From Verrucomicrobiota bacterium (lineage in GTDB: Bacteria; Verrucomicrobiota; Verrucomicrobiia; Chthoniobacterales; UBA10450), in NCBI GenBank assembly GCA_003220005.1, contig QHRD01000010.1, positions 1 through 42,768 on the forward strand: a stretch of DNA of 42,768 nt. The letters are read 5' to 3'. Shown in pieces: positions 8,678 to 38,713 of the stretch (positions are counted from its first letter, which is position 1; each line of letters starts with the position of its first letter). The notes beneath the pieces are model-generated. The model made no database searches and was not told the DNA's origin. It saw only the letters and a program-made list of their open reading frames with translations. A program made the position numbers and the translations under genes.

Positions 8678-8728
8678 GGTAGGAACATCGCGCTGCGATA
8701 ACCGGACGCCGCCGCGCGGCGTCCTACC
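8678..8728. repeat. double-hairpin element GGTAGG...CCTACC
   Basis: Two hairpins, ATCGCG-c-TGCGAT-like (8687-8699) and GGACGCCGC...GCGGCGTCC (8704-8724), bounded by GGTAGG and CCTACC. It separates the exported-protein stop from the convergent mutase stop; the mutase TAG codon overlaps its right edge. Confidence 0.65.
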
Positions 8729-10511
8729 TACACCATCGGGCGAAAACGCCCCACGACTTCCTGCAAACGCTCCGTGATCTGGCCTAACGAACAGACCTCA
8801 GCCGCTTCTAGCAGAGCGGGGAAAACATTTTCACCACCATCAGCGGCTCCCGCTAGTTTATCTAGCGCGCGTTTCGCTTTCTCGGCATTTTTCTTTTTGA
8901 ATTTCACAAGGCGATCGACCTGCCACTGCCGTTTGCTCCGCGGGATGCGCGCAAGTTTCACGTCCGGAATGTCATCGTCGCCGTCGCGGTAGCGGTTCAA
9001 GCCTACGCTTGGGCGAATTCCATCGTAAATTTGCTGTTCGTAGCGATGGGCGGCGTTTTGGATCTGGCTACGCTGATAACGTTCTTCTACTGCTGCCAGC
9101 ACGCCGCCGAGCCGTTCGATCTCGCGGAATTCATCGAGAATCGCCGCTTCCACCGCGCGCTCGACAGCTTTCATCCCGGGCGAACCGCTTAGCATGTTCA
9201 TGGTGTGTTTAAAAATGCCGGACTCCTCGAGCAGGATTGCCTGTCCGTGCGCAGCAAGCCGGATCCATTCTTCACTCGGCGTGGTGAAAGGTTCGTCGGC
9301 GCTATTCGAATGACACGAATTCGTGGCATTCATGTAAGCCAGGATTAACTCGGTTGCCGTACGGGTAAGATTGTTTTTGAACTCGGCGGCAATCAGCGAG
9401 CGCCCGCTGGTTTGCGTATGTAATTTGTAAAGCTGCGCTTTTGGCCCCGCGCCGAACACGTCACGCATTCCGATCGCCCAGATCCGACGCGACACGCGCG
9501 CGAGCGCGATGTACTCAGCGTCCAGTCCGCAATCAAGAAAGAACGAAAGACGCGGTCCGAATTGATCGACGGGGATGCCGCGCCCGGCGAACATTTCTAC
9601 GTACGCGAATCCGTTGGACAACGTGTAAGCAGCTTGCTGCACCGGCGTCGAGCCGGCTTCGCCGATGTGGTAGCCGCTAATCGAGATCGGATACCAGCGC
9701 GGCATTTCGCGCGTGGTAAGATCGTTTCGTTCTGCGCCTGGACTTCCTTGAAAATGTCGGCCTGAATTGTGCCCCGCAACTTCGGAACAACTCTCGGCCC
9801 GAACCGCCGTTTCGCAGCAGCGATGTACATCGCCATGATAATCGGCGCCGGGCCGCTAATCGTCATTGACGCAGAGAAATTCGTCGAGCCGAGATCGAAT
9901 CCATCGTATAGCCGTACCATGTCTTCGACAGTGTCGATCGCCACGCCGCCTTCGCCGATCTTTCCAAAGACACCGTCCGCATCGCTGTCGATCCCGTAGA
10001 GCGTCGGGCCATCGAACGCCGTGCTGAGACGGTGCGTGCGCTGGTGGCGTGTGAGATACTGAAAACGCTCGTTCGTGTCCTCAGCCAGCATCAAACCGGA
10101 GAACAATCGCGTGGGCTCTTCGACTTGCGGAATTTTCTCGCCACGGGACGAGTCCGTCCGACTGGCGGACTTGTCGAGTTTACCGCCGTTCTTCTCAAAG
10201 CTTTCAATCTCGCGAACCGGCTCGAGATACATCTCGCGATAGGTCGCGTTCAGATACGGAAATTCGCCGGGCAATCCTTCGCCGAAAAGATAACGCGCGA
10301 CCTCGCCGGGCTCGTCGATTTCCGGCAAAGCGAGTCGTGGCAAGGGCAAGCCGGTCGGGGTGCGAGTGGTCGGAATCTTTGCTTTGAAGTCGTTCCAGCG
10401 GCCACGCAGTTCGCCGCCGAATTTTTCATCCGTGCGCGCGCGTTTCACCTGATCGAGGACAAACTTGTTATAGGTCTCAACCGATTCGACGACTTGTCCG
10501 AGTTTGCTCAT
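8728..10511 (-). pseudogene. icmF: IcmF-type acyl-CoA mutase domain, frameshifted
   Basis: Substrate-binding mutase part of an isobutyryl-CoA mutase fusion (IcmF). The first frame (10511 down to about 9720) holds the linker-like N-terminus, the PGEFPYLNATY block, the RLSTAFDGPTLYG block and LRGTIQADIFKEVQAQNETI. The second frame (about 9718 to 8728) resumes at TTREMPRWYPISISGYHIGEAG and runs to the normal C-terminus (VCSLGQITERLQEVVG). Between them the reading frame shifts, and compared with the family as I remember it about 15-20 residues are missing, so a small deletion is likely. As written, no full-length mutase is made. The B12-GTPase half lies just upstream, separated by an inverted repeat. 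A sequencing error is the main alternative. Confidence 0.8.
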
Positions 10512-10528
10512 TTCTTTGGTTAACTTCC

Positions 10529-10613
10529 TGTCATTCCGAGCGGAGTCGAGGAATCTCTATCTAATTTTTCTCAGAGAAGATCCAGAGATGTCTCGACTTC
10601 GCTCGACATGACA
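10529..10613. repeat. dispersed inverted repeat, family A (best copy)
   Basis: Arms TGTCATTCCGAGCGGAGTCGAGG...ATCTCT and AGAGAT...CTCGACTTCGCTCGACATGACA can pair over nearly 30 bases with a short AT-rich centre. It is the whole spacer between the B12-GTPase ORF and the mutase ORF of the icmF locus. Other copies or fragments: 2959-3049, 22203-22233, 27887-27914, 35589-35694. Confidence 0.85.
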
Positions 10614-10619
10614 AGTTGA

Positions 10620-11783
10620 TTATACGCGCCCACAAATTAAATCGAACAATCGGTCGACGCCAGGGTCGCGGTGACGTTTTGCGACAGTGTCGATCAGTTG
10701 CTGCGACCGCCCGCCTCCGCCAAGGCTACGACGGGCAGGCCGGTTTTGTTCCAGGCGTTGCTCGATTTCCGTGTGCGCGGTGCGCGCGCGCTGAAGATCG
10801 CTTTTGTTCACCACGATGATGTCCGCCAAATCAAGCATCACGATTTTTTGCAATTGCAACCGGCTGCCGTAATCCGGATTCATCACCAGCACTGTTTGAT
10901 CGACAATTCCATTTTTCTGAAACGGCATTGCCTCCTGGCCGGTACCGACGGTCTCGATAATGACGTAATTGAATTTCGATTGAGCGAGCAGCACCAGGCA
11001 ATCGTGCGTCGCGGGCGAAAGCCCGCCCGCTTGTCCGCGTGTGGCCATGCTGCGCATGAACACGCGATCGTCCTGCGAGTTGATCATTGTGGCACGATCG
11101 CCCAGCAACGCGCCTTCGCCGACCACGCTGGGATCATGGGACAAAATTGCAATCCTTCCTTTCGGATCTCGATTAAGAAAACGCAGCACGAGCTCGTCGA
11201 TCAATGTCGTTTTGCCCGCACCACCCGGCCCGGTGAAACCAATGACACGGCTTCGCCGTGAAGTCCGAATTTCGAATTTCGAATTTCGAATTTTCTTCCG
11301 GCCCGCGGCGGCATCTTCAATCTCCGTCAGCCTGTGTGCGAGTTCCTGATCGAATGATTTGGCCTGCGACCGTTTCGCTCGCGATTTGCCATAGCGTTGA
11401 TGGACAAATTTCACCATGTCCTCGAGCGACGTGCCGGCGAAAAAAACTTCCTCGACGCCTTTGCGTTTCATGATCGCGGCATCGTCATGTGTAATGGTGC
11501 CGCCGCCACCACCGAATACCTTGATGTCGTCTGCCCCTTTTTTGCGGAGAAGATTCACAACCTCAGCAAAAAACTCAATGTGTCCGCCGTTGTAACTGGA
11601 GATGCCAATCGCGCGCACGTCTTCCTGGATCGCCGCGCGCACGATGTCGCCCACCGAGCGATGATAACCGAGATAAATGACCTCAATGCCATGCCGAATG
11701 AATTCCAAATTGATTGTATTGATCGCGCTATCGTGCCCGTCGCAAATCGGAACCGCGGTCAAAATCCGGATGGGTGAAGCCAT
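10620..11783 (-). CDS. icmF: IcmF N-terminal half: B12-binding and G-protein chaperone domains
   Basis: 387-aa protein with the first two modules of IcmF. Residues 1-~135 form a cobalamin-binding domain with DGHDSAIN, LGYHRS and the glycine-rich VFGGGGG. Residues ~185-387 are a MeaB-like GTPase with P-loop GPGGAGKTT and base-recognition NKSD. In canonical IcmF the mutase domain continues in the same chain; here the ORF stops at TAA just before an inverted repeat and the mutase is separate. Two repeat-derived stretches are in frame: KIRNSKFEIR plus a CACGGC/GCCGTG hairpin (residues ~163-177), just before the P-loop, and PARRSLGGGG (from the family B palindrome at 10710-10739). It could still bind B12 and GTP, but is probably useless if the mutase is dead. 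Confidence 0.8.
   Translation of the reverse strand: MASPIRILTAVPICDGHDSAINTINLEFIRHGIEVIYLGYHRSVGDIVRAAIQEDVRAIGISSYNGGHIEFFAEVVNLLRKKGADDIKVFGGGGGTITHDDAAIMKRKGVEEVFFAGTSLEDMVKFVHQRYGKSRAKRSQAKSFDQELAHRLTEIEDAAAGRKKIRNSKFEIRTSRRSRVIGFTGPGGAGKTTLIDELVLRFLNRDPKGRIAILSHDPSVVGEGALLGDRATMINSQDDRVFMRSMATRGQAGGLSPATHDCLVLLAQSKFNYVIIETVGTGQEAMPFQKNGIVDQTVLVMNPDYGSRLQLQKIVMLDLADIIVVNKSDLQRARTAHTEIEQRLEQNRPARRSLGGGGRSQQLIDTVAKRHRDPGVDRLFDLICGRV
10710..10739. repeat. 30-bp palindromic repeat, family B, inside icmF
   Basis: CCCGCCTCCGCCAAGGCTAC followed by GACGGGCAGG; one base different from the copy in mutM. It is read from the opposite strand here and encodes exactly ten codons, PARRSLGGGG. Confidence 0.85.
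11246..11295. repeat. in-frame hairpin plus GAATTTC tandem repeat inside icmF
   Basis: CACGGC-ttc-GCCGTG (11246-11260) followed by about four units of the 7-mer (C)GAATTT(C). The stretch is read through in frame just N-terminal to the GTPase P-loop. Related simple sequence appears inside pyrC (21014-21047) and before tRNA-Leu (38681-38710). Confidence 0.65.
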
Positions 11784-11888: not shown

Positions 11889-12644
11889 ATGGCCGATCCG
11901 TTAAATTTCACCGACAAAGTTGTGCTGGTCACCGGCAGTTCGCGCGGGATCGGCGCAGAAATGATCAAGGCCTTCGGGAAACACGACGCACAGTGCGTGG
12001 TGAACTATGTCGAAGATGCTCAAGGGCAGAATAAGACCGACGCGATGACGGTCGCGAAAGAATTAAACGAGCCACTAGTGATCGAGTGCGACGTAACCCA
12101 GCCGGCGCAGGTCGAAGCCATGATAAAGCAAATACAGGATCGACATGGCGGCCTCGATATTCTCGTGAACAATTCCGGCATCATTAGCGATCGCACCATC
12201 AAGAAAATGTCGATGGATGAATTCGAGAGCGTCATTCGCGTAAATCTAATCGGCACATTCATCGTCACTCAAAAAGCAGGCGCGATTCTGCGCAACGGCG
12301 GCCGGATCATCAACATGTCCTCCGTGAGCGGCCAACTGGGCTTGTTCGGCCAAGCCAATTATTCGTCGAGCAAAGCGGGGATTATTTCGCTCACGAAAGT
12401 CTCTGCCCGCGAGTTTGCCCGGCAAAGCGTCACTGTGAATGCCATCGCTCCGGGTTTCATCGACGTCGGCATGAGCAAGGGTATGCCCGATGAAGTGACG
12501 CAGAATTTTATCAAACAAATTCCGCTCGGCCGCCTCGGTGACGTAAGTGAAATTGTAAACGCAGCGCTCTTCCTTGCGTCCCCAATGGCGTCATATATCA
12601 CGGGGCAAGTCTTGAACGTGAACGGCGGTTTTTACATGGGCTGA
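11889..12644 (+). CDS. SDR-family 3-oxoacyl reductase (FabG-like)
   Basis: 251-aa classical short-chain dehydrogenase/reductase, probably reducing a 3-oxoacyl-ACP or -CoA with NADPH. The cofactor motif TGSSRGIG (about 15-22), NNSG (about 93-96), the catalytic Ser in MSSVSG, YSSSK (Tyr/Lys pair, about 157-161) and the C-terminal ITGQVLNVNGG are all present. Divergent from icmF, which hints at, but does not prove, a shared acyl-CoA context. Its TGA stop is followed immediately by a decayed copy of palindromic family B. Confidence 0.87.
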   Translation: MADPLNFTDKVVLVTGSSRGIGAEMIKAFGKHDAQCVVNYVEDAQGQNKTDAMTVAKELNEPLVIECDVTQPAQVEAMIKQIQDRHGGLDILVNNSGIISDRTIKKMSMDEFESVIRVNLIGTFIVTQKAGAILRNGGRIINMSSVSGQLGLFGQANYSSSKAGIISLTKVSAREFARQSVTVNAIAPGFIDVGMSKGMPDEVTQNFIKQIPLGRLGDVSEIVNAALFLASPMASYITGQVLNVNGGFYMG

Positions 12645-12670
12645 CCCGCCTTCGCCGAGGCTAAGGCGGA
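12645..12670. repeat. decayed palindromic family B copy after the fabG-like gene
   Basis: CCCGCCTTCGCCGAGGCTAAGGCGGA matches the family B core with several substitutions. It starts directly after the fabG-like stop codon. Confidence 0.6.
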
Positions 12671-12675
12671 GAGCA

Positions 12676-17691: not shown

Positions 17692-17718
17692 GCGTAGGTG
17701 GAACGCGTTTTCCCTCGG

Positions 17719-17743
17719 CACGCCGTAGCCTTGGCGAAGGTGG
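17719..17743. repeat. decayed palindromic family B copy
   Basis: CACGCCGTAGCCTTGGCGAAGGTGG is the reverse-complement form of family B with several changes, flanked by AACGCG...CGCGTT, an outer inverted repeat. Confidence 0.55.
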
Positions 17744-17871
17744 CTCAACGCGTTGCCAAAACAAATGCGGCTTGGCCGCCTCATATTTGCGCCTTTGGCG
17801 ATGCCGCGGCCATCGTCTTCGGGAGAAACCGATCCACCTAGACCACCCGCGCCGCGCACGTAAGCTTCTCC

Positions 17872-20914: not shown

Positions 20915-22201
20915 ATGAGCGCGACGATCATTCGCAACGGACGCGTGATCGATCCCGCAAACAAGCGAGATGAAATTGCTGACCTTTGCATCGCTGGCGG
21001 AAAAATCGTCGCCTCCAAATCCAAAATCCGAAATCAGAAATCCGAAAGCGAAGAGATCGACGCAAAAGGTCTGATCGTGGCGCCCGGTTTACTTGACATG
21101 CACGTGCACTTGCGGGAGCCGGGATTCAGTCATAAGGAAACGATCGAGTCAGGCGCGCACGCGGCTGCAGCCGGGGGATTTACCACGGTTGTTTGTATGC
21201 CGAACACTGCGCCAGTCGCGGATAATCCCAGTACCATCGCGTGGATCAGAGACCGAGCAGCGGCCGTCGCATGCGTAAACGTTTTGCCGACAGGCGCGAT
21301 TTCAAAAAATCTGGCCGGCGAAGAGCTCGCGCCGATCGGTTCACTCGCGCAGGCAGGCGTGATTGCGATCACGGACGACGGTCACTGCATTCAAAATCAC
21401 GAGCTGATGCGGCGCGCGGTCGAGTATGCGCGCATGGTCGATCTGCCCGTGCTCGATCATTGTCAGGATTACAATCTGGTCGGCAACGGCGTGGTGCACG
21501 AAGGCTATTGGAGCACACTGCTCGGTCTGCCGGGCTGGCCGGCAGCGGGCGAGGAAGTGATGGTGATGCGCAACATTTTACTCGCGGAACTTTGCAATCA
21601 TCACATTCATTGCCAGCACCTCACCACGGCGGGCAGTGTGCGCTTGTTGCGTGAAGCGCGGACGCGCGGGGTGAAGATCAGCGGCGAAGTTTGCCCGCAT
21701 CACATCGCGTTGACCGAGGAGGCGATCCAAAATTTCGACACGCACTACAAAATGAATCCGCCGCTGCGATCGCAGGAGGACGTTGATGCGCTGCTGGAAG
21801 GAATCGCCGACGGAACACTCTCGGTCCTATGCTCCGATCACGCGCCGCACGCCGATTTCGAAAAGGAAGTGGAATTCGATGCAGCGCCGTTTGGCATCAT
21901 CGGACTGGAGACCGAGCTCGGATTATTTATTGATCTGCTCGTGAACAAGCACGGCAAGATCGATATCGCCCGTTTGATCGAGATGTACACAGTCGAACCG
22001 GCGCGTTTGTTAAAGATTGATGCCGGTACGCTATCGGCCGGCGCGCGAGCTGACGTAACGCTGATCGATCCGGAACTGGAGTGGACAATCAGGATTGATC
22101 AGTTTCAATCTGCCTCGCGCAATTCACCATTCGACGGCTGGAAACTCAAAGGCCGCGCGGTGCGGACCATTGTCGGAGGAAAAACCGTTTGGAACTTGTA
22201 A
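20915..22201 (+). CDS. pyrC: dihydroorotase
   Basis: Zinc amidohydrolase that cyclises carbamoyl aspartate to dihydroorotate. Metal ligands lie in DMHVHLREPG (about residues 62-71), in the VLDHCQD and HHIHCQHL regions, and in the catalytic CSDHAPH (about 302-308). ATG 20915 (MSATIIRNG) fits the family start; the ORF-track start is five codons too early. Odd: SKSKIRNQKSESEE (about residues 33-46), in the small beta domain before the metal site, is encoded by AAATCC-type simple repeats and looks inserted, since the usual proteins go directly from a GKI strand to the following I-D-A-KG strand. Third gene of the pyr operon. Confidence 0.95.
   Translation: MSATIIRNGRVIDPANKRDEIADLCIAGGKIVASKSKIRNQKSESEEIDAKGLIVAPGLLDMHVHLREPGFSHKETIESGAHAAAAGGFTTVVCMPNTAPVADNPSTIAWIRDRAAAVACVNVLPTGAISKNLAGEELAPIGSLAQAGVIAITDDGHCIQNHELMRRAVEYARMVDLPVLDHCQDYNLVGNGVVHEGYWSTLLGLPGWPAAGEEVMVMRNILLAELCNHHIHCQHLTTAGSVRLLREARTRGVKISGEVCPHHIALTEEAIQNFDTHYKMNPPLRSQEDVDALLEGIADGTLSVLCSDHAPHADFEKEVEFDAAPFGIIGLETELGLFIDLLVNKHGKIDIARLIEMYTVEPARLLKIDAGTLSAGARADVTLIDPELEWTIRIDQFQSASRNSPFDGWKLKGRAVRTIVGGKTVWNL
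21014..21047. repeat. in-frame AAATCC/AAATCAG simple repeat in pyrC
   Basis: TCCAAATCCAAAATCCGAAATCAGAAATCCGAAA, units of roughly 7-8 nt. Very similar to AATCGCAAATCTAAAATCAGAAATCC before tRNA-Leu. Confidence 0.6.
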
Positions 22202-22202
22202 C

Positions 22203-22233
22203 CCGTCATTCCGAGCGAAGTCGAGGAATGACA
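22203..22233. repeat. short copy of inverted repeat family A
   Basis: CCGTCATTCCGAGCGAAGTCGAGGAATGACAG: left arm of family A joined almost directly to a short right end, directly after the pyrC stop. Confidence 0.6.
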
Positions 22234-35452: not shown

Positions 35453-35588
35453 GCCTTACGGTACCGAGTGCGGATATCGATTCAAACTCGCTCTCTGGAC
35501 AAAGCCGTTCAAACGGCTCTATTGCCGCGCGTCGCAGTGATCACTGGACCGGTGTCCAATGTTAATGAGAGTCAGTAGACTCGCTTTT

Positions 35589-35694
35589 TGTCATGTCGAG
35601 CGAAGTTTCCCGCAGTTGCGGGATTACTGATGTTTGAGACATCCAGAGATTTCTCGACTTCGGTCGCCGCTGCGACCTGCGCTCGAAATGACAG
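35589..35694. repeat. inverted repeat family A with nested hairpins
   Basis: Outer arms TGTCATGTCGAGCGAAGTT... and ...TCTCGACTTCGG/GCTCGAAATGACA match family A. Two extra hairpins, TCCCGCA-gt-TGCGGGA and GTCGC-cgct-GCGAC, sit within, as if other elements had inserted. It lies directly upstream of the ATP-grasp gene; the ORF-track extension of that gene reads through it. Confidence 0.65.
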
Positions 35695-38680: not shown

Positions 38681-38710
38681 GCAAATCGCAAATCTAAAAT
38701 CAGAAATCCG
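38681..38710. repeat. AAATC-type simple repeat before tRNA-Leu
   Basis: AATCGCAAATCTAAAATCAGAAATCCG-like units; related to the in-frame stretch in pyrC. Confidence 0.5.
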
Positions 38711-38713
38711 ATT

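Follow-up and report, generated by a model that had tools for sequence, protein, structure and literature searches.

The window, i.e., the whole stretch of 42,768 nt that was analysed, carries an imperfect palindrome (YCCGCCTTCGCCAAGGCTACGGCGGRCARG) inside a gene for a B12-binding and MeaB-type GTPase subunit related to IcmF (Table 1). The host ORF matches the NCBIfam IcmF model (E 1.9e-87) and the Pfam MeaB and B12-binding families. The preliminary description had placed the palindrome at this position, antisense in the gene with the frame kept and giving the decapeptide PARRSLGGGG, and minus-strand translation bore this out, with coordinates, frame and orientation all correct; the orientation is also opposite to that of a copy in mutM, which is read on the other strand (sense). 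The wording "icmF GTPase half" holds as to the IcmF type of the gene and was amended in that the ORF is a split B12-binding plus GTPase subunit, not half of a fused ORF; outgroup orthologues are likewise short ORFs. The pattern occurs four times in the window against zero expected from 100 shuffles. An Rfam search of the window gave two tRNAs alone above the gathering score, and the element had no Rfam family match.

Table 1. Element copies and host genes in the window.
Feature	Position	Strand	Remark
30-bp palindromic element, C-G type (CCCGCCTCCGCCAAGGCTACGACGGGCAGG)	10710..10739	+	antisense reading PARRSLGGGG in the icmF B12/GTPase subunit
Core of this copy (CCGCCTCCGCCAAGGCTACGACGG)	10711..10734	+	one mismatch to the pattern
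Host gene: B12-binding + MeaB-type GTPase subunit, IcmF-related, 387 aa	10620..11783	-	
Second intragenic copy	6693..6722	+	sense reading PASAKATAGR in mutM/fpg
Host gene mutM/fpg (formamidopyrimidine-DNA glycosylase)	6399..7235	+	protein-family matches
Intergenic copy, degenerate tail	12645..12674	+	directly after the stop codon of fabG-like ORF 11889-12644
31-bp-form copy	17714..17744	-	overlapping ORFs without protein-family match; probably non-coding

Other repeats were observed at the same locus. An AT-rich repeat (GAATTTCGAATTTCGAA..., AAATCCGAAATC...) lies at 11260-11289 and also at 21016-21045 and 38682-38711, and the copy at 11260-11289 is translated in frame as IRNSKFEIRTS within the icmF linker. 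The length of this linker differs among congeners and similar repeats are present, so a second repeat family is tolerated in icmF. A longer inverted-repeat-like element (GTCATTCCGAGCGGAGTCGAGGAATCTC...GAGATGTCTCGACTTCGCTCGACATGAC) occupies 10527-10613, between the GTPase ORF and the mutase ORF, and has relatives at 22202-22229 and 35588-35606. The downstream mutase gene (8728-10511) is split across two overlapping frames near 9600-9705; the parts share one frame in relatives, which points to a frameshift in this MAG from assembly error or decay.

For the icmF subunit, 20 congeneric and three outgroup orthologues were aligned as proteins with the sequence from the own genome, leaving out outgroup row L071 (wrong frame). 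The insert is present in 3 of the 21 congeners having the gene (G000, which is the own genome, G024, and G010), and the site is empty in the remaining 18 and in the three outgroup orthologues, the alignment being gap-free there. The insert consists of ten residues between ..QRLEQNR and the following residue of ..QQLIDTVAKRHRD. The difference in the DNA is exactly 30 bp, and the DNA alignment shows no visible target duplication at this insertion. An exact insertion of ten residues (30 bp) was also found in mutM of the own genome, where all 15 congeneric orthologues are empty. Insertion length thus equals element length at both genes, without the target-site duplication expected of MITEs. Further empty sites were sought using flanks joined across the insertion site, and gap-free ones were obtained for a radical-SAM/TRAM gene of MiaB type (L300 vs L361) and for the pairs L320 vs L248 and L319 vs L233; in L343 vs L330, three gap letters occur in the entire alignment and none at the junction. 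The element is therefore mobile, with clean presence and absence among congeners at several genes, and the immobility that the preliminary description had named as fatal to its reading does not hold. The claim of insertion is strong, for a comparison made mostly among draft MAGs. In an icmF tree built with the insert columns removed, G010 was not grouped with G000 and G024, and the best tree requires two changes. Independent insertion at the same icmF site in G010 was considered; a single origin of the three filled rows was not rejected (p-AU 0.249).

Outside the element, icmF has a dN/dS of 0.04-0.06, i.e., it is under strong purifying selection, and dN in the ten codons of the element is 0.10-0.16 (from few sites) vs 0.02-0.04 for the gene. 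From these rates, the host gene looks functional and the added decapeptide looks loosely constrained.

The anatomy of the element was taken from an alignment of 109 copies from the genus and 120 copies from genome_contigs. The aligned consensus is Y CCGCC TTC GCC AR GGC TAC GGCGG R CA(A/G)G, and conservation is bounded by positions 0 and 29, alike for the genus copies and for those of other phyla. Covariation links positions 0 and 25 (CG in 42 and TA in 38 of the 109 copies), and none of 5,000 shuffles reached the observed pairing; AT and GC are also found, so all four Watson-Crick types occur at this closing pair. In DNA folding, the strand with CYTG and hairpin folds better (-7.8 to -8.5 kcal/mol; z -2.65 and -1.85). 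The element is thus a 26-nt imperfect hairpin, with a 6-bp outer stem, a G-C inner stem, and an A-rich loop, plus a conserved 4-nt foot, CYTG, sitting 5' of the hairpin on one strand. GTAG was found inside the hairpin alone and never as a foot, so the element lacks the GTAG or CGTC foot by which tagged REPs are defined. Some of the T-A type copies seem to lie within a larger homologous stretch (GGTCAT...ACAAGTCGG), and the T-A type copies L287, L288, L289, L324, and L345, all in unrelated genes, have common extended flanks (VAGG-x-LSAVASAKAD-DPG); these flanks suggest that the element may have a longer, composite form.

Six-frame translation of the consensus gave five open frames (PAFAKATAGR, PPSPRLRRA, RLRQGYGGQ, PARRSLGEGG, and LPAVALAKA), and the sixth carries TAG. 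The element is accordingly open on both strands, as had been proposed, and its tolerance in both orientations was likewise upheld. Intragenic copies use five of the six frames. Genes were called with a small home-made order-3 periodic gene finder with the element masked, by which 76% of bases were called coding. Among the 109 genus copies, 52 had the same coding frame on both flanks and 48 were non-coding on both sides. About 44% of copies were called intergenic vs about 24% of bases that are non-coding, an intergenic enrichment, yet 52 of 109 were called intragenic. In a survey of insert phases across the genus, these 52 copies were distributed over the frames as 20, 12, 8, 7, 4, and 1. No stop occurs within any of them, the single copy in the stop-bearing frame being a diverged one without the stop; the probability of one or fewer of 52 in one given frame is 0.0009.

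A second form of the element has one extra base (GGCGN-GR-CARG), its length of 31 bp coming from the alignment and not from an empty site. It was intragenic in 3 of 20 copies, whereas 41 of 63 copies of the 30-bp form lie in genes (Fisher p = 1e-4, which is optimistic because copies within each form are related, though at different loci), and the three exceptions (window 17714-17744, L251, and L346) are doubtful genes or N-terminal extensions. Intergenic DNA is thus almost the only place where the 31-bp form occurs, so selection is the filter behind frame keeping, and the contrast between the two forms is the most direct evidence for this. The 31-bp form might instead prefer intergenic DNA at insertion.

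Hosts identified by Pfam include uvrA, ligD, mutL, mutM, a DinB-like gene, and two Lhr-type helicase genes; genes for a 2-oxoacid dehydrogenase E2, MnmE, a MiaB-like protein, a histidine kinase, and protein kinases; and genes for a glycosyltransferase, an M16 peptidase, and menaquinone biosynthesis. Insertions were placed in linkers between the E3-binding and catalytic domains of E2, between the two enzymatic domains of LigD, and between PAS and HisKA of the histidine kinase. In uvrA (L242 = G000:C100, L298, L348, and L322), two different sites are used in the genus, and the own genome has two nested copies at one of them. DNA repair or processing genes account for 6-8 of 29 sites, which is above an assumed share of about 5% (P 0.003 to 6e-5, for a count made post hoc). 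Di Nocera et al. (2013, PMC3733652) reported this tendency for REPs as well, with Opitutus terrae uvrA and DNA ligase among the cases. In-frame copies beyond the genus were found in PurH of a Doudnabacterium, in a lysyl-tRNA-synthetase-like protein of an alphaproteobacterium, and in a DinB-type polymerase gene.

The own genome has 33 copies (control 0), and copies were found in 22 of 24 congeners of this soil verrucomicrobial genus. At ≤2 mismatches, the element was absent from 14 genomes that represent 13 genera in other families of the order, which had suggested a genus-specific element; this was overturned by the exact 24-base core, which occurs in at least 117 genome_contigs stretches from at least 10 phyla, with a patchy distribution. 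The chance expectation for the exact core is estimated at well below 0.1 match in 257 billion bases. Bearers among the matches listed are Acidobacteria, Verrucomicrobia, Kiritimatiellae, Lentisphaeria, Planctomycetes, Omnitrophota, Bacteroidota, Proteobacteria (including Bradyrhizobium isolates), Acidimicrobiia, Doudnabacteria, Gottesmanbacteria, Peribacteria, Marinimicrobia, and Zipacnadia. Within the phylum, copies with ≤1 mismatch were found in 15 of 115 genomes and, among the better genomes, in 9 of 62 genera. Element-bearing genomes hold 1-81 copies each (reversed-pattern control 0). Searches of plasmids and phages for the element gave no match, and 2.9 million viral contigs held eight exact cores; no clear transfer vehicle thus emerges. 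The core sequence was not found printed in the literature searched, and a literature search for Udaeobacter with palindromes found nothing.

The palindrome is very probably a non-autonomous mobile element of tiny size and REP/RPE kind, inserting as an exact 30-bp unit that is tolerated in frame. It inserts in either orientation without visible target duplication. With a length of ten codons and a stop in just one of the six frames, a copy entering a linker or surface loop would lengthen the protein by no more than some ten small or polar residues and be retained, and insertions that shift the frame or bring in the TAG would be lost. Movement may be due to a trans-acting enzyme, e.g., of the HUH/Y1 type, working on the single-stranded hairpin.

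That the element is a strict REP, moved by a RAYT (REP-associated Y1 transposase) that is encoded at another place in the genome and acts in trans, is possible but rather doubtful. Size, hairpin, and the 4-nt conserved foot 5' of the hairpin agree with REP geometry, in which a hairpin has a conserved foot (PMC6006769), and exact insertion without target duplication is what single-strand Y1 chemistry predicts. In-frame insertion within genes is also known for REPs (PMC3733652, PMC6006769), and Y1_Tnp genes were found in the own genome and in 14 of the 15 element-bearing genomes tested. The foot, however, is CYTG and not GTAG or CGTC, and no REPtron was seen: 33 of 34 Y1 loci (15 element-bearing genomes plus the own) had no element copy within ~1.5 kb, the remaining one being at about the chance level estimated for the copy density. 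One genome with 40 copies had no Y1 match. The best Y1 (RAYT-like) gene of the own genome, L074 (G000:C123:1-1997), is flanked by different hairpins of its own (TAGCCTGGGGCAACGCCCCAGGCT), and gene and hairpins are another REP system of this genome. Assignment to the RAYT-linked REPs was set aside, as 1 of 34 Y1 loci had a copy nearby, the best Y1 gene of the own genome has hairpins of its own, and the 40-copy genome gave no Y1 match. The element works like a REP, and it may move in trans.

Spread without a dedicated transposase, e.g., by replication template switching or by repair of hairpin-forming single strands, would agree with the lack of a mobiliser at the Y1 loci examined, with a closing pair matched in all four types, and with patchy copies in unrelated phyla; it is nevertheless unlikely, as a moving template is needed to account for constant 30-bp ends, a single conserved foot, and a sequence shared by many phyla, and local copying alone fails for dispersed single copies in unrelated genes. 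The intergenic enrichment and the strong conservation of the core across phyla would suit an element kept for a DNA or RNA function, such as an mRNA stabiliser or a binding site, with intragenic copies as by-products. However, congeners differ in presence and absence gene by gene and the element is present in just 15 of 115 genomes of the phylum, so no copy is needed, which makes such a function very unlikely. Least credible is the suggestion of the preliminary description that the sequence was selected for openness in many frames and hence for being harmless in coding DNA: the consensus is open in five frames over both strands, but so are (in at least five frames) 70% of random palindromes of the same G+C and 85% of those made by shuffling the real base pairs, so no adaptation can be demonstrated in the open frames, and intergenic DNA retains the 31-bp form, which shifts the frame. 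Harmlessness stems from the length, 30 = 3 x 10, and from the culling of bad insertions.

The element, read as a mobile 30-bp unit, constitutes a new family of the REP/RPE-like type that is frame-neutral and intragenic and has an unusually wide host range. In-frame palindromes within genes had been recorded chiefly in Rickettsia and among scattered tagged REPs. The same core in at least 10 phyla, together with exact in-frame insertions, means that proteins of very distantly related bacteria can be made longer by short mobile palindromes. The two forms, one base apart, of which the frame-neutral one alone is common in genes, are a natural experiment, and the old question of selfish DNA filtered by selection vs raw material for proteins becomes directly testable. 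Sharing among distant phyla raises the question of what moves the element and by which path between phyla. As a tentative extension that merits consideration, the element may represent a third, CYTG-footed superfamily of REP-like elements, moved in at least 10 phyla by a trans-acting single-strand enzyme, with a 30-bp linker form and a sister 31-bp form that is barred from genes; the 30-bp form would then enter genes as ready-made ten-residue linkers.

Four known systems were compared. MITEs are likewise non-autonomous inverted-repeat elements without coding capacity, but they are 70-300 bp long with terminal inverted repeats (PMC3733652), whereas the element is 30 bp long and its insertion leaves no visible duplication of the target. 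REPs inside tnpA-REP genes (subclass 2.4, PMC6006769) are also inserted in frame in a variable peripheral region of the protein; they differ in having a GT[AG]G foot and in being located within the transposase genes themselves. The GTAG- and CGTC-tagged REPs (PMC3733652) are 20-40 bp palindromes with many dispersed copies, as is the element with its 30 bp, 33 copies, and hairpin, and some of them lie in frame in ORFs, notably uvrA, DNA ligase, and helicase genes, in several phyla. Unlike them, the element has the foot CYTG and no adjacent RAYT, about half of its copies were called intragenic, and an identical 24-base core is found in at least 10 phyla. The Rickettsia palindromic elements (RPE), compared here by description, are palindromes in frame in protein-coding genes that remain functional; they have other hosts, and the element differs in its 30 bp, both orientations, and five frames. 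RPE-1 is much longer than 30 bp. The hallmark of the RPE, in-frame insertion in ORFs that are functional, was found for the element in icmF, with the low dN/dS given above, in mutM, and in the other genes with empty sites.
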